Of a stretch of DNA of 64,000 nucleotides, positions 32,878 to 38,658 are shown one piece after another. Under the pieces are notes generated by a model. It was not told where the DNA came from, searched no databases, and saw nothing but the letters and a program-made list of their open reading frames with translations. Numbering within the stretch: position 1 is the stretch's first letter; the number at the start of each line of letters is the position of its first letter. The DNA comes from Roseobacter fucihabitans. GTDB taxonomy: Bacteria; Pseudomonadota; Alphaproteobacteria; Rhodobacterales; Rhodobacteraceae. Location of the stretch: NCBI RefSeq assembly GCF_014337925.2, contig NZ_CP143423.1, forward strand, positions 2,448,501 through 2,512,500. The letters are read 5' to 3'. The translations under genes and the position numbers were made by a program.

Positions 32878-34836
32878 TTAACCGTCCGGTTTGTGGTGCT
32901 TAATAGTGTCTAAAAGGGCGTCAAAAGTACTCCGTTCGGCACGACTGATTCGGGCTCCGTTTTCGCCCATATCGTATTCCGCCCTGTCCTCCTGTCCGCT
33001 CCGGCGCGCGATATCGGCAGCTTTTGCGGCCTCCGAAAGACGCCACGTCAGCCCCTCATCCGCAACACCGCTCAAGTCCTCCACAGCTTCGGCAATTTCC
33101 GCATCGAGCCCCCGCGCGCTATGTAACTTGGCGAGCTCTTCCGCGACCGTCATGCGTGCAGCCTCAACACCCCCAGGGTTACGAATACAGGGGACTATGG
33201 CGACATGGCGTTGTTTAATCAGGTTTTCAAGAGCCTGGCCCCCAAGAACATCAGATATTCGGTCAGCCAATTCGTCAGCACTCACATCCATATGGCGCAG
33301 CAGCAGATCACGCAATCGCGCGTGAAGCGGGTCCGAACAACGCATCTGTTCGATACCGGATTCGAAGGTTTCAATTACCTCAGGGCACATCGTCAGCACG
33401 GCCAGAATGACCGCCTCGCGCAGATGATCCGTGTCGTTCATCTGCTCAGACAAAGCCAGCACCGAGGATTTCGCCGTCGACGTCGCACCAAGTTTCGGCG
33501 GTATCCATTTGCCCCCGGTAAAACCGCCTCGCGCTTTGTGAGGTGCGCGTTGCGGGCGGAAAAGCTGCCAGCGCAGGTCTTTGATCTCTTGCCCGTAATG
33601 GCTGCGGATGGACGGGTCCTTGATCGTCATGATCTTGTCGCGCAGGGTCTTATCGAGCGCTGCCTTGCGTTCGGGGCTGTCAAACACTCGCCCCTCTGTC
33701 TCGCGCTGCCACAGCAGGCGCACCATCGGCATCGCCTCATCCAGCAGCTTTTGCAACGCACCCGCGCCCTGCTCGCGCAGCAAATCATCCGGGTCCTTGC
33801 CCGTCGGCATGATCGCAAAGCGCAAGGATTGCCCGGCCTCCACCAGCGGCAGCGCCAGATCGATCAACCGCATCGCCGCGCGCAGCCCCGCCGTGTCCCC
33901 ATCCAGCGCAATGATGGGTTCGGGCGCAATCCGCCACAGCATTTGCAACTGGTTTTCGGTGATGGCGGTGCCCAGAGGCGCGACCGCCGCCTCGAACCCC
34001 ACGGAGGCGAGCGCGATTACATCCATATAGCCTTCGGCCACGATCAAGGGCTGGCCTTTGCCCGCAGCCGTGCGCGCCGGTCCCTGATTATAAAGGCTGC
34101 GCCCCTTGTCAAAGAGTTCGGTTTCCGGCGAGTTCAGATATTTGGCGTTGTCATTGGGGTCCATCGCCCGCCCGCCAAAGGCAATCGCGCGCCCGCGTGC
34201 GTCCCGGATCGGATAGATGATGCGCCCGCGAAACGTGTCATAGGGTTTGCCGCCCTTGGAGGAGGGCTTGGCCAGACCGGCATCCAGGATCAGTTGATCC
34301 TCCACGTTCTTGGCCTTGAGGTGATCCCAGAGCGCCTGCCATTGATCCGGTGCAAAGCCGATTTCCCAACGCTCCAGCACCGCAGCACTCAAGCCGCGCC
34401 GCTCCAGATAGGCGCGCGCCTCAGCCGCGGCCCCCGTATTCAGTTGCAGGCGGAAAAACTTGACCGCCTGCTCCATAACTTCGGCCAATTGCGTGCGTTT
34501 GTCGGCCTTTTGTTGCGCTTGCGGATCCCGCGCAGGCATCGGCATCCCGGCCTCGCGCGCCAGGATCTCCACCGCCTCCATAAAGCCGACGTTTTCCGTT
34601 TCGCGCACAAAGGAGATCGCATCGCCTTTGGCATGACAGCCAAAGCAGTAATAAAACCCCTTGCGATCATCGACGTGGAAACTGGCGGATTTCTCCTGAT
34701 GGAACGGGCACGGGGCCCACATGTCGCCCTTGCCCTGGTTGGATTTCCGCGGGTCCCATATGACTTTGCGCCCGACCACCTGCGTCAGGCTCATTCGGGT
34801 GCGCAATTCGTCGAGAAATCCGGGTGGCAGGCTCAT
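32878..34836 (-). CDS. dnaG: DNA primase
   Basis: A 652-residue replication primase. The N-terminal CHC2 zinc ribbon (CPFHQEKSASFHVD, then YYCFGCHAKGDAISF) at about residues 43-75 is followed by the TOPRIM catalytic core: VAEGYMDVIAL near 260 and ALDGDTAGLRAA near 310. The C-terminal helical DnaB-interacting part is present. Length is normal. A mobile element is inserted 51 bp upstream of the start codon, so its original promoter region has been separated or rebuilt. It is followed by rpoD. Confidence 0.96.
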   Translation of the reverse strand: MSLPPGFLDELRTRMSLTQVVGRKVIWDPRKSNQGKGDMWAPCPFHQEKSASFHVDDRKGFYYCFGCHAKGDAISFVRETENVGFMEAVEILAREAGMPMPARDPQAQQKADKRTQLAEVMEQAVKFFRLQLNTGAAAEARAYLERRGLSAAVLERWEIGFAPDQWQALWDHLKAKNVEDQLILDAGLAKPSSKGGKPYDTFRGRIIYPIRDARGRAIAFGGRAMDPNDNAKYLNSPETELFDKGRSLYNQGPARTAAGKGQPLIVAEGYMDVIALASVGFEAAVAPLGTAITENQLQMLWRIAPEPIIALDGDTAGLRAAMRLIDLALPLVEAGQSLRFAIMPTGKDPDDLLREQGAGALQKLLDEAMPMVRLLWQRETEGRVFDSPERKAALDKTLRDKIMTIKDPSIRSHYGQEIKDLRWQLFRPQRAPHKARGGFTGGKWIPPKLGATSTAKSSVLALSEQMNDTDHLREAVILAVLTMCPEVIETFESGIEQMRCSDPLHARLRDLLLRHMDVSADELADRISDVLGGQALENLIKQRHVAIVPCIRNPGGVEAARMTVAEELAKLHSARGLDAEIAEAVEDLSGVADEGLTWRLSEAAKAADIARRSGQEDRAEYDMGENGARISRAERSTFDALLDTIKHHKPDG

Positions 34837-34879: not shown

Positions 34880-34887
34880 CGCGCCTT
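34880..34887. repeat. Target-site duplication, left copy
   Basis: The 8-bp sequence CGCGCCTT directly abuts the left inverted repeat of the mobile element. The same eight bases abut the right repeat at 38312-38319. An exact 8-bp match directly outside perfect inverted repeats marks a true transposition event. It also suggests a fairly recent one. Confidence 0.93.
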
Positions 34888-34908
34888 GGTAGTGTCTCAG
34901 TTTGAAAT
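34888..34908 (+). repeat. Left terminal inverted repeat
   Basis: Twenty-one bases starting GGTAGTGTCTCAGTTTG, the exact reverse complement of 38291-38311. The last codons and the stop of the degenerate transposase lie inside this repeat, as in many compact IS elements. Confidence 0.95.
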
Positions 34909-35792
34909 ATCTTTTTTCTTATAGGGACCACGTTTCTTGGGTGCGGGTGCCGCTTCATCGATCAAGTTAACAATCCATTCCATATCATGCAACGTGTCAG
35001 ATACGCCCGCCGCCATTGCCGGGGTCATTTTCAATGTCTTGTGGATGCGAACAAAGTTGTAATGCACAAATTACAGGGAAAGCATGTTTACGTGGTTTTC
35101 CAGCTTCTTGCTAAAACCGTTGGTCAGGCGTGTAAAGCGACGCATCCCCATGCCCATAGAAAAGTTCTGACGCTCTACATATGACGTGCTGACCAATTCC
35201 TCAATTGGCTCACCAAAAACTTGCTCTTTGCGTGACCCTGTAAATCAAGCGGGCGAATACTTCTTTTCATGCCCCTGCTGGCCTGTGGTGCCACCATACT
35301 GCTTAACCAGCATCGCGTAGTCTAGTCGCCACCAAATGCGCCCTCTACGGCGTCCAGATAGGCCTTGTGACCGTCTGCGGTGAGTTGAACGCGGTTTGAC
35401 AAGCGTGACGCCAGATCAACCATGAACTCGTAAGCTGTATCGCCTGAACGGTCACCAACTTCATAAGATAGGATCATTTTGCTATCGGCGTCGATTGCGG
35501 TCCACGTCCACACGTCACCAGAACCGTCTGGGGCTGATTTTGCATCCTCTACGTTTTTGGCTTTGGCGTAAACGAAAGACCAGATTTTATCACATTCAAC
35601 GCGTGTTGTTTTGACGTTGCGCACTGTGTTGTTGTGATACTTGGCGCAAGCCTCACCAGCTTCGATCAACAGCTTTGTGACTGTGTTGATTGATACGCCC
35701 ACCACGCAGCTGTTTGAGCGCATTGAATTGCCTTCAACCATCATGTTCAGGATCATTGTGCGGGTTTTGGTATAAAGTTTGTTCATACCCAT
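34897..35792 (-). pseudogene. Decayed IS1-type transposase
   Basis: The intact 5' part encodes 156 residues: helix-turn-helix-like start, then VECDKIWSFVYAKAKNVED with the first catalytic Asp, WTWTAIDADSKMILSYEVGD, and LTADGHKAYLDAVEGAFGGD. A frame break and TAG follow near 35322. Downstream frames continue the family sequence (DYAMLVKQYGG, TSYVERQNFSMGMGMRRFT, RIHKTLKMTPAMAAGVSDT, ending KKRGPYKKKDI) but contain further in-frame TGA and TAA codons. At least three lesions make it inactive. The start is ATG at 35792 or 35786. It reads toward dnaG. Confidence 0.88.
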
Positions 35793-35846
35793 TTAATATG
35801 AACTTTTATGCTTAGGCTCAAGAGAGAACTGCATGTATTTTCCAGA

Positions 35847-35875
35847 TTGACGCATTAAACTTTAAGCTGTAAACA
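35847..35875 (+). promoter_or_regulatory. Candidate promoter of the passenger operon
   Basis: TTGACG and TAAACA are separated by 17 bases, a good -35 and a fair -10. This would start transcription about 35 bases before the first passenger gene. It is predicted from sequence only. Confidence 0.5.
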
Positions 35876-35915
35876 AATTACGACGTATCAGGCAAATCAT
35901 ACAAGGGCAATAGCT

Positions 35916-36581
35916 TTGGAAGATATCGACGTATTGAAGGCGCACATTAAGGCTCAAGCAGTTAAATCCTTTCCAAAGGCAATGCTTGAAGATTTGATGA
36001 AGCGCTGCGAGCGAGCCTATCTGGAAACCTTTGCCGAAGTATCCCATAGTAAAACCACTCTACTAGAGCAGCGCATTCATATGCTGCGGCAAGCCCGGTG
36101 CTTTCGGATGGACTATGAATTGGCTAAGTCAGCGGAGAAGTTTGGCATTCCATACACAGCCAAACCTTTGGCGGAGAACGATTGGCAATATACTTACGTG
36201 ACGGCTGGCGATTTCGGAGTAACTCAATCTTACGTTCAGAAGATGGGCTGTTTGCCAAATCCGGCAAAGTTCCGGGACACCTTGGCAAAAACCTCAAATA
36301 TCCCCCAGTTACCGCTTGAAGATGACGCTGAGATTTTCAAACCACGCAATTTTTATGGATTGTTTGCCCATAATCCAGTTGGAGCGATCTTTGAGGAGGA
36401 AAAGCAAAAGCTTGGGTCCATCCAGCTTTGTGTTCCTTACGGCTGCATGAGAAAATTTGCCTTAGAAGTTTCCATCGCGGAACTTCTCGCGGAATATCCT
36501 TCCGTTGCGACACCAAGCATTGCAATTCCTGCGCCAACTTGGAAAAGAGACCCGAAGAGAAAAGATACAGGTACAGAATGA
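35916..36581 (+). CDS. Unrecognised 221-residue passenger protein
   Basis: A soluble, mixed-charge protein that I cannot assign. Helical N-terminal third (LKAHIKAQAVKSFPKAML, MKRCERAYLETF), a middle with ENDWQYTYVTAGDFGVTQ and KPRNFYGLFAHNPVGAIF, and a basic C-terminal tail (TWKRDPKRKDTG). No signal peptide or membrane segment. The start appears to be TTG at 35916, since a stop lies just upstream and no better start fits; AAGGG lies upstream. Its TGA overlaps the ATG of the XRE-ImmA gene, so the two are translated together and probably work as a pair. A toxin or sensor partner is possible but not shown. Confidence 0.7.
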   Translation: MEDIDVLKAHIKAQAVKSFPKAMLEDLMKRCERAYLETFAEVSHSKTTLLEQRIHMLRQARCFRMDYELAKSAEKFGIPYTAKPLAENDWQYTYVTAGDFGVTQSYVQKMGCLPNPAKFRDTLAKTSNIPQLPLEDDAEIFKPRNFYGLFAHNPVGAIFEEEKQKLGSIQLCVPYGCMRKFALEVSIAELLAEYPSVATPSIAIPAPTWKRDPKRKDTGTE

Positions 36582-37771
36582 GCATCGCAGCAGGTTTCAT
36601 TGGCGCTCGATTGTCCCAAGCACGTAGAGCTAGGGCGATCACTGCCGCCGACCTGGGAGATATGACGAATGTGAGTTCACAGTCGATCTCTAAGTATGAA
36701 AACGGGCATCAAACGCCCAGACGCGACGTCGTTGATCGCTTTGTTAATGTATTGCATTTTCCCACTCAGTTTTTCTTTCGCCCAGTTGACGAGACAGATC
36801 AGAAGCCTGTTTTTTTCCGATCTAAGCTCTCGGCACAGACGATCTCGCTGGATCGAGCGAAAGTCAGGCTGGAATGGATGAAGGAAATTGTTGACTATCT
36901 GGGGGAGTTTTTTGACTTCCCTGATCTGAGCCTTCCACAGACAGATTTAGATCAAATCGACCCGCTCAATATAACCCTTGACGACATTGAGAACCTTGCA
37001 ATCTCAGTAAGATCACAATGGGGCATAAGCAGTGGTCCAATGACAAATTGCTTAGAGCATATAGAAGAATCCGGAATTCTCGTTTCAAGAATTCATGTTC
37101 GGGCAGAGAAAGTGGACGCATTCTCTCAGTGGTCTGATAAGTTTGGTATCCCGTTCATGCTCTTGTCACGCGACAAGGCGAGCGCTGTCCGGCAACGCTT
37201 CGACGCTCTACACGAATTATGCCATATCTTAATCCACAAGAATGTGACCCCAAGTCAGCTAAATAACAGGGCAACGTATAAGTTATTGGAAAAGCAGGCT
37301 GATACTTTCGCGAGTTATATGCTTTTACCTGAAACGGATTTTTTGGATGAACTGTATTCCCCGACTCTTGATGGAATGCTGAGCATGAAGGAGCGCTGGG
37401 GCGTTTCTGTAGGTGCAATGATTATGCGCTGTAAGTCGTTAGACTTGCTTGATGATGCATCTGTTAAAAGGATGTGGATGAACTACACGCGGCGCGGCTG
37501 GCGGAAAGGCGAGCCGTTTGATGGAAAGACTGAAAAGGAAACACCTTACTTGATGAAGCGCAGTTTTGAGATGTTGATTGAGGCAGGCGTGAAGACTCAA
37601 GATGAAATAACTTCAGACCTTCCTTACCCCTTGGACGACCTAGAAGAGATTGCAGGCCTTCCAACTGGGAGTTTAGGCTCGACAACCCGCATTCGCGCTG
37701 AACCTAAGCTTAAGAGTAGCGTTATTTCGGACGACAATGTTGTGACGCTTTTTAACAGAGATAAAGTCTAG
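36578..37771 (+). CDS. XRE-family regulator fused to ImmA/IrrE metalloendopeptidase
   Basis: A 397-residue protein. Residues 7-65 are a Cro/C1-type helix-turn-helix (ARLSQARRARAITAADLG, VSSQSISKYENGHQTPRR). The ImmA/IrrE (DUF955) zinc peptidase follows: DALHELCHILIH holds HExxH near residue 212, and EKQADTFASYMLLPE gives the third ligand near 240. A C-terminal extension of about 120 residues has no clear match. Relatives cleave a paired repressor (ImmR in ICEBs1, DdrO in Deinococcus) or act in toxin-antitoxin and phage-linked loci. The start overlaps the previous stop (ATGA). The stop shares CTAG with a convergent gene. Confidence 0.9.
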   Translation: MSIAAGFIGARLSQARRARAITAADLGDMTNVSSQSISKYENGHQTPRRDVVDRFVNVLHFPTQFFFRPVDETDQKPVFFRSKLSAQTISLDRAKVRLEWMKEIVDYLGEFFDFPDLSLPQTDLDQIDPLNITLDDIENLAISVRSQWGISSGPMTNCLEHIEESGILVSRIHVRAEKVDAFSQWSDKFGIPFMLLSRDKASAVRQRFDALHELCHILIHKNVTPSQLNNRATYKLLEKQADTFASYMLLPETDFLDELYSPTLDGMLSMKERWGVSVGAMIMRCKSLDLLDDASVKRMWMNYTRRGWRKGEPFDGKTEKETPYLMKRSFEMLIEAGVKTQDEITSDLPYPLDDLEEIAGLPTGSLGSTTRIRAEPKLKSSVISDDNVVTLFNRDKV

Positions 37772-38001
37772 TTCTTATCCCAGCGCTTCGCTGCGGCCTT
37801 CTTAGCAATATCTGACCGTTGCTCAGGTGATAGCTTCGCGGCCCGCGCCTTACCACCTTTAGACCCCATTGCCTTAGCAGCGGGGTCTTTGCCATCATCT
37901 GGGGTTTCGCCGTCAACTTCGCCAGTTGCGATCTTGCCTATCATCACGGCAAGGCCAATGGCATCAGCGGGGCGCTTTTCGCCTTTCGGTCCTTTAGGCA
38001 T
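37768..38001 (-). CDS. Small basic histone H1-like protein
   Basis: A 77-residue protein that starts MPKGPKGEKRPADAIGLAV and ends in a Lys/Ala-rich segment (KLSPEQRSDIAKKAAAKRWD) with a Gly-Lys turn (MGSKGGKARAAK). I know this type as a small protein often annotated as histone H1-like or RNA-binding. The AAKKAAAKRW ending suggests nucleic-acid contact. The function is unknown. It overlaps the end of the upstream gene 37994-38227 by 8 bp and shares a CTAG stop palindrome with the XRE-ImmA gene. Confidence 0.75.
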   Translation of the reverse strand: MPKGPKGEKRPADAIGLAVMIGKIATGEVDGETPDDGKDPAAKAMGSKGGKARAAKLSPEQRSDIAKKAAAKRWDKN

Positions 38002-38227
38002 CGCGGACAGCCTCCATTGGCCTGAAACACATCACTTTGCTGTCCTCTCCAGTTTCGTGCAGGAGTCGGACTAAATTAGCATCTGGCCCCCAAGTGCCAG
38101 ACCGCACAATTTTTTTAGCCTTTCCTATGGCGTCGGTCAGGTCTTCGCCGCCAACGGTTTCTGAATGCACCAAGGACTGCATGTCGTTGTCTTGCCCTGA
38201 GCCAACCTGTAATGTGTAAATATTCAT
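37994..38227 (-). CDS. Small passenger protein, 77 residues
   Basis: A 77-residue protein (MNIYTLQVGSGQDNDMQSLV, then GEDLTDAIGKAKKIVRSGTW and DANLVRLLHETGE). I do not recognise it. It is soluble and slightly acidic. The ATG at 38227 has GGAAC upstream; an ATG four codons earlier is also possible. It overlaps the histone-like gene by 8 bp, which suggests translational coupling. Both run toward the XRE-ImmA operon. It lies just inside the right inverted repeat. Confidence 0.65.
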   Translation of the reverse strand: MNIYTLQVGSGQDNDMQSLVHSETVGGEDLTDAIGKAKKIVRSGTWGPDANLVRLLHETGEDSKVMCFRPMEAVRDA

Positions 38228-38290
38228 GTAGCGTTCCATCCGTATGCTTTGCGCTAGGCATAACATAGGATCAGACCGGATAAACTTCAA

Positions 38291-38311
38291 ATTTCAAACT
38301 GAGACACTACC
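38291..38311 (-). repeat. Right terminal inverted repeat
   Basis: Twenty-one bases, an exact reverse complement of 34888-34908, ending CTGAGACACTACC. It is followed at once by the right copy of the target duplication. Confidence 0.95.
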
Positions 38312-38319
38312 CGCGCCTT
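38312..38319. repeat. Target-site duplication, right copy
   Basis: CGCGCCTT, identical to 34880-34887. Removing the element and one copy would restore a continuous intergenic sequence upstream of dnaG. Confidence 0.93.
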
Positions 38320-38352: not shown

Positions 38353-38658
38353 TTACTGCTCCAGCGCCATGCATTGCTCCTGCCACCAGCCGGCGAGGTC
38401 TTCATCGCGCAGATCGCGGCGTTTCTTTTCATAGATTGAGGGGGCGACGATCGGGATGATATTGTTGTATTTTTCCGGCCATGTCGCGCTTTCCGCCAAG
38501 GTGGCTTGTAGTTTGCGCTCCGGAACACGGTCAAGGCGCGCCTGTTTGATCGCGCCAACGACCTGTGCCTGATACGTGCAGCTCACTTCTTTTTCGCTTT
38601 GCGCGAGGGCAGGAAAAGCCGTCAGGCCAAGCACGCAGGCCAGTGAATATCGCAACAT
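38353..38658 (-). CDS. Secreted hypothetical protein
   Basis: A 101-residue protein with a signal peptide (MLRYSLACVLGLTAFPALAQ, cleavage after residue 19). The mature domain of about 80 residues contains two Cys (CTYQAQVVGAIK and WWQEQCMALEQ), likely a disulphide. I do not recognise the family. It would be periplasmic. Its composition matches the host, so it was next to dnaG before the element inserted. Confidence 0.78.
   Translation of the reverse strand: MLRYSLACVLGLTAFPALAQSEKEVSCTYQAQVVGAIKQARLDRVPERKLQATLAESATWPEKYNNIIPIVAPSIYEKKRRDLRDEDLAGWWQEQCMALEQ

Follow-up and report, generated by a model that had tools for sequence, protein, structure and literature searches.

An IS1-type element carrying passenger genes beside dnaG in Roseobacter fucihabitans, and its relatives with variable cargo

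In classical members of the IS1 family of insertion sequences (ISs), InsA/InsB' is made by frameshift; single-frame members also exist, presumably including the ISMhu11 group, for which we found no paper, and the target duplications of the family fall in the 8–9 bp range. Here, we analyse a 3424 bp unit related to this family in Roseobacter fucihabitans, located within a stretch of 64 000 nt (contig NZ_CP143423.1, positions 2 448 501 to 2 512 500; the whole stretch is referred to below as the window), together with related elements from other genomes. Like IS1 elements, the unit and its relatives combine an IS1-type DDE transposase, ends starting with GG and an 8 bp target duplication. Unlike them, they are 2–4 kb in size rather than bare ISs, they carry cargo and a constant second gene (KGG), and no transposase frameshift is present in the intact relatives. 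Its ends, duplication and transposase assign the window element to the IS1 family or its immediate vicinity, and, since it carries passenger genes, it counts as a transporter IS under the definition given in excerpts of PMC3129680.

By the definitions in the same excerpts, passenger genes between IS ends are likewise a feature of transporter ISs and of mobile insertion cassettes. The family described here has passenger genes and a transposase between such ends, the transposase of the window being broken. One relative (L057) lacks a transposase and falls under the definition of a mobile insertion cassette, whereas the window element retains a near-complete, broken gene. The family differs from both classes in that the same second gene is found in every complete element examined and cargo appears to be exchanged within a fixed frame. 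For Tn3 transposons, it has been argued that their toxin–antitoxin (TA) pairs form part of the transposition module (excerpts of PMC7157771). As in the Tn3 family, TA genes are regular transposon parts here and vary between members, but the transposase is of another family, the elements are much smaller, the cargo extends beyond TA genes, and no resolvase or res site was recognized. RosmerTA systems are TA pairs with an ImmA-type protease antitoxin and are reported to act in phage defence, the pair of Gordonia phage Kita giving narrow protection (excerpts of PMC10440598). In the window, an RmrA-type gene encoding a helix-turn-helix (HTH) domain and an ImmA protease similarly overlaps a smaller RmrT-like gene; in contrast to RosmerTA, the RmrT match is only distant, the pair is borne on an IS1-type element, and it is known here from sequence alone. 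In titles and abstract openings of the open-licence PMC literature, we found neither a description of TA or defence cargo on IS1-family elements nor one of an IS1-type lineage in which a second gene is constant while TA or defence cargo is exchangeable.

The element between dnaG and its neighbour

We propose, with a probability of roughly three in four, that the window unit is an IS1-type passenger-carrying transposon with a constant frame and a cargo slot, which inserted by means of its own transposase and whose transposase decayed later. An ancestor with a working transposase would have inserted between dnaG and the adjacent gene, generating the 8 bp duplication; afterwards, the transposase would have decayed and the RmrT–RmrA-like pair would have stayed open.

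The unit is bounded by perfect 21 bp inverted repeats (100 % complementary) and abutted at both ends by an exact 8 bp duplication, CGCGCCTT, as had been read in an earlier note made from the letters of the window. Under uniform base composition, approximately 5e-4 perfect 21 bp inverted pairs would be expected by chance in 64 kb, and approximately 1e-8 with matching 8 bp flanks. One side of the unit faces dnaG (32878–34836, minus strand) and the other a gene encoding a 101 aa protein (38353–38658, minus strand). The earlier note proposed a check for an empty site at dnaG, and a site without the insert was present in all 18 of 18 congeners, in which dnaG and a relative of the 101 aa neighbour (36–82 % identical) lie approximately 45–165 bp apart. 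Because this gap is so short in every congener, the window unit represents an insertion. The single 8-mer was not readable letter for letter in the congener gaps, where the sequence is too diverged; the joined window flanks align with L012 and L007 on both sides of the insertion site. The G+C content is 0.478 within the unit, compared with 0.589 across the remaining window. No second copy of the element was found in its own genome, and the family end is absent elsewhere in that genome at ≤2 mismatches. A solo family-like end with three mismatches, whose partner end was not found, occurs at another position of the same genome (L072 4055–4075; C1:4248654), and by eye a further transposase gene appears to lie a few hundred bases away from it.

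The window transposase is homologous along its full length to that of an intact relative, L054, and the remainder beyond its open part extends to the left end of the element. The gene had been called dead, and its one frame break and two stops agree with that description. The longest open part (156 aa) matches the NCBIfam model NF033558 (transpos_IS1) with an E value of 1.6e-16 and 60.9 bits, under the cut-off of 100, and Pfam DDE_Tnp_IS1 with 18.4 bits, under the cut-off of 24.1. The transposases of three intact relatives also remain under the NCBIfam cut-off of 100 (73–79 bits), and the intact L054 and L063 proteins exceed the Pfam cut-off (34.7 and 40.1 bits), consistent with the initial identification of an IS1-type element with passenger genes. 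Three of the eight plasmid matches are annotated 'IS1 family transposase'. In the intact relatives, the transposase occupies one uninterrupted frame of at least 286 aa, without the InsA/InsB' frameshift of classical IS1; the element remains eligible for the family because single-frame members are known.

Two cargo genes of the window, sharing a 4-base overlap, resemble RosmerTA (Table 1). The PADLOC match of the RmrA-like protein to the RosmerTA antitoxin covers residues 5–383 of 397, and the regulator-protease noticed at the outset is thus an RmrA-like HTH and M78 protease; the match of the same protein to the spr1629-type antitoxin (E 6e-59) falls under that model's cut-off. A 199 aa version of the RmrT-like protein, with a later start, is present in the protein database, which contains 28 relatives at E≤1e-3, most of them 216–225 aa in length. 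Relatives of the RmrT-like gene were found neither in genome contigs nor in plasmids, and a fold search of the PDB returned no significant match, the hits being EcoRV-like (E 0.07 at best, TM approximately 0.3). In scans for promoters and terminators, no signal rose above chance level. Four non-transposase genes had been counted in the unit; three are supported, and the fourth is an unsupported small open reading frame (ORF) that lacks relatives in the other 68 elements and matches nothing in Pfam, NCBIfam, PADLOC or PHROG. Two database proteins, an RmrT (P0002) and a KGG (P0049), are each 87 % identical to the window protein and each list a longest contig of 3887 bases; judged by these contigs alone, a metagenome probably holds a close relative of the window element.

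Table 1. Features of the element and its target site (window coordinates)
Feature	Position	Strand	Basis or remark
Left copy of 8 bp target duplication, CGCGCCTT	34880..34887		Read from the letters
Left terminal inverted repeat, 21 bp	34888..34908	+	Repeat search; end consensus over 69 elements
IS1-type transposase pseudogene	34897..35792	-	Open part 35322–35792; one single-base gap and two in-frame stops elsewhere, relative to the intact L054 gene
Gap between transposase and cargo, likely mosaic junction region	35793..35915		DNA identity to L054 from the transposase start; resemblance to RmrA carriers on the cargo/KGG side
RmrT-like gene, putative toxin, 221 aa, TTG start	35916..36581	+	PADLOC RmrT, E 5e-12
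RmrA-like gene, putative antitoxin, HTH and M78/ImmA protease, HELCH motif	36578..37771	+	PADLOC RmrA, E 9e-117
KGG gene, small protein of 77 aa, constant across the element family	37768..38001	- (transposase strand)	Profile search
Small ORF, 77 aa, unsupported	37994..38227	-	No match
Right terminal inverted repeat, 21 bp	38291..38311	-	Repeat search
Right copy of 8 bp target duplication, CGCGCCTT	38312..38319		Read from the letters

A constant frame with a variable cargo slot

The search for the terminus across genomes that had been suggested for this locus revealed copies elsewhere, with different cargo. At ≤2 mismatches, the family end occurs in 23 of 394 genomes of the bacterial family. 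From the window and 20 fetched loci, 12 end pairs were accepted on the ends alone; 11 have an exact 8 bp duplication, the combination of terminal inverted repeats and target duplication that belongs to the IS1 family. The transposase frame is intact in 10 of these 12 elements, broken in the window and missing from L057. A 13th pair (L071) was dropped, with six mismatches in one end and no duplication. An alignment of ten transposases gave 80 loci, the best 80 of at least 554 confirmed relatives, for which an exact 8 bp duplication was a criterion for acceptance. At 62 of the 80 loci, the family ends and an exact duplication delimited a complete element; 16 had no pair and two gave false pairs (L078 and L095), rejected because the paired sequences were not the family end.

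The 62 elements from the transposase route and seven from the end route make up a set of 69, after removal of loci on the same contigs (L055=L088, L056=L128, L059=L090, L070=L085) and of L073, the proteins of which are identical to those of L061. These 69 elements measure 1597–4416 bp (median 2888), with a smallest non-transposase span of 1053 bp, and 16 of the 21 positions of their end consensus, GGTAGTGTCTCAGTTTGAAAT, are ≥95 % conserved over both ends. Seven hold-outs bring the total to 76: five from an order-wide scan (L188, L190–L193) and two plasmid elements, from Hoeflea (L184) and Acidiphilium (L185), with duplicates dropped (L186=L121, L187=L082, L189=L080). Loci without a complete element were excluded from the hold-outs, namely L194 (distant transposase, KGG absent), L195 (broken transposase with KGG), L196–L198 (transposase fragments, KGG absent), and L199 and L200 (remnants with KGG and Panacea). 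The order-wide transposase scan, a less selected sample, covered 390 genomes; each of its 13 full-length matches belongs to a complete element that includes KGG, and an exact duplication flanks 12 of these elements. The other eight matches listed are fragments, broken or distant copies, two being the window's own. Ends, exact duplication, KGG and cargo DNA are all present in seven of seven hold-outs, and the named Hoeflea plasmid has the same frame with an RmrA-type gene. The ends, KGG and non-transposase DNA of at least 1 kb are common to all 76 elements, and none is a bare IS. Three elements (L115, L135 and L148) come from metagenome-assembled genomes labelled Anaerolineales, Gammaproteobacteria and Nitrosopumilus, which may reflect wide transfer or binning errors.

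The constant parts of the lineage would thus comprise the two ends, a single-frame transposase of approximately 300 aa and, upstream of it, KGG of approximately 75 aa. The earlier note took KGG for cargo, a view that its distribution contradicts: a profile built from the elements' own proteins in 18 cases matches 69 of 69 elements (weakest E 1.7e-16), 51 of which were not seeds, as well as all seven hold-outs. In the 68 elements with a transposase gene, KGG is always on the transposase strand and upstream of the transposase. It mostly lies ≤350 bp from the transposase-distal end, and farther in for L104, L116, L118, L143 and L148. KGG is also present in 15 of 18 loci without an accepted end pair (absent from L097, L099 and L133), and a scan of 149 genomes of the bacterial family detected nine KGG genes in seven genomes, seven in complete elements and two in remnants beside Panacea-type genes. 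The window KGG is the sole such gene in its own genome at E≤1e-8. Among the matches listed, public names include 'histone H1', 'RNA-binding protein', many 'hypothetical protein' and some odd ones. At least 7999 relatives occur in the protein database among 8000 scored candidates (those sharing most words). No sequence relative of KGG was found in the PDB, and its structure model has three helices at low confidence. We infer for KGG a role in transposition, as a DNA-binding helper or a regulator. An ORF cluster considered as a second gene family (c2) was rejected, since its members are mostly antisense to KGG.

The slot between KGG and the transposase would often hold TA-like or anti-phage-like genes. 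By ORF clustering, an RmrA/ImmA-type gene occurs in 15 of 69 elements (14 of 356–447 aa, and a short ImmA-only protein in L058), a Panacea-domain antitoxin gene in 12 and a HigA-ImmA (PD-Lambda-2-like) gene in nine; together, these three antitoxin-type clusters cover 35 elements, L058 being counted in two. We scanned 134 cargo ORFs of ≥125 aa, excluding KGG-cluster ORFs of <150 aa. Among the matches listed, Pfam gave M78 (21), HTH_3 (22), Panacea (12), P63C (4), Bro-N (3), DNA methylase (2), nSTAND1 (2) and Abi_2 (2), and PADLOC gave RmrA models (up to 19), PD-Lambda-2_B (9) and RmrT (5); the RmrA models also match HigA-ImmA and ImmA-only proteins. Single cases include an AAA protein with HEC-04 as its best PADLOC match (L115), a methylase-HNH fusion (L135) and a dCTP deaminase (L134 6900–8174), a gene class with an anti-phage role. 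Our impression is that TA and defence genes are enriched among the cargo, and, judged by sequence similarity, the cargo mix leans towards defence.

Apparent mosaic structure and proposed exchange of cargo

In a tree of 68 transposases, the window copy and that of the Panacea carrier L054 are sisters (support 100/94), and the transposase half of the window element is 81 % identical to L054 at the DNA level, from the transposase start outward. The window KGG is nearest to those of RmrA carriers (L091, 75 %; L089, 74 %; L153, 73 %), with L120, which has other cargo, close at 72 %; KGG-RmrA DNA is 68 % identical to L089 over about 1 kb. With a Panacea carrier nearest on the transposase side and RmrA carriers nearest for KGG, the window copy looks mosaic. 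Across the family, the Rosmer label changes 13 times over 14 rows on the transposase tree (shuffled mean 12.9; 351 of 500 shuffles as low) and the HigA label eight times over nine rows (shuffled 8.6; 198 of 500 as low). Once the transposase is corrected for, KGG similarity tracks shared cargo (r 0.32, 0 of 1000 permutations), and transposase similarity does not track cargo after correction for KGG (r -0.004, 523 of 1000 permutations); partial Mantel tests can be over-confident. We infer that co-resident elements occasionally recombine, in or close to the stretch separating cargo from transposase, and that cargo would thereby be exchanged along with the KGG half. Cargo may favour upkeep of the element through phage defence and/or addiction.

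We further suggest, tentatively and at somewhat less than even odds, that this transposon family, so far unrecognized, is dedicated to shuttling small bacterial immune modules. Its fixed frame of IS1-type transposase, KGG and ends would carry an interchangeable TA or anti-phage cassette, KGG would be the obligatory partner coupling cargo and transposition, and cassette plus KGG would be re-joined to different transposase halves, re-assorting defence genes chiefly among Alphaproteobacteria. The smallest TA and defence modules would have a direct vehicle in a 2–4 kb element with recognizable ends, a KGG marker and a small slot for cargo, and new modules, including many unannotated cargos, would become findable by position alone. 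It would also make testable the long-standing question of whether transposon-borne TA genes are there for defence, addiction or transposition control.

Several results weigh against the explanation first proposed for the window unit, a passenger-carrying transposon with a constant frame and a cargo slot. The Panacea label changes only seven times over 12 rows of the transposase tree (shuffled 11.3; 0 of 500 as low) and all four cargo labels together 26 times, compared with 31.7 when shuffled (0 of 200 as low), so not all cargo is exchanged freely, Panacea cargo being partly inherited with the transposase. KGG and transposase similarities are themselves correlated (r 0.57). The three main antitoxin clusters leave out 34 of the 69 elements, and many cargos have no match to any family. 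In the window, the PADLOC match of RmrT is distant, covering residues 12–190 of 221. L062 has an end pair without a duplication, and transposase-less elements are under-counted because most elements were found via the transposase.

Role of the cargo and arrival of the element

The RmrT–RmrA pair could serve the element, through addiction or transposition control, rather than phage defence, a possibility that we consider rather doubtful yet the strongest of the alternatives. In its favour are the argument that Tn3-borne TA pairs are components of the transposition module (excerpts of PMC7157771) and the HTH of RmrA, which could allow it to act as a repressor. However, RosmerTA is reported as phage defence (excerpts of PMC10440598), and other elements of the family carry methylase-HNH, STAND and dCTP-deaminase genes, which are not classical addiction genes. 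The pair is also open despite the dead transposase, so transposition control is not its present benefit.

A second alternative concerns arrival: the unit may have come as a mobile insertion cassette, its transposase already dead and the enzyme supplied in trans by a related intact element, as the earlier note supposed. Both ends are perfect while the transposase is broken, and the transposase-less L057 has ends and an exact duplication, as this account would have it. Nevertheless, we consider it unlikely. Apart from the broken window copy, no transposase of this group was found in the genome at E≤1e-40, and the intact transposase frames of 10 of the 12 end-found elements speak against it too, as they do against the further suggestion that the unit spreads through its IS ends alone. 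If a gene is dead throughout its branch, non-synonymous changes are expected to outnumber synonymous ones. The window transposase branch has 28 synonymous and 19 non-synonymous changes (13 and 5 on the L054 branch); because synonymous changes are in excess, transposase death was probably late. The counts suggest that most of the divergence of the window transposase preceded the death of the gene, and constraint may have been weaker than in L054. The evidence favours arrival of the window element under its own power as a better fit than movement in trans. Relatives do move, since L061 and L073 encode identical proteins at two places in one genome (G119) with different duplications; this pair is apparently an active relative.

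Still less probable is the absence of any functional theme, with elements taking up any small gene between two ends and TA genes common because mobile DNA is rich in them: the 34 elements outside the main classes, the many unannotated cargos and the matches of PADLOC HTH-protease models to related repressors would fit, but 35 of 69 elements fall in three antitoxin-type clusters, the same cargo types recur on distant transposases, and several further cargos are also defence-like. One element with STAND cargo (L126) lies on a contig of a congener (G015:C5).

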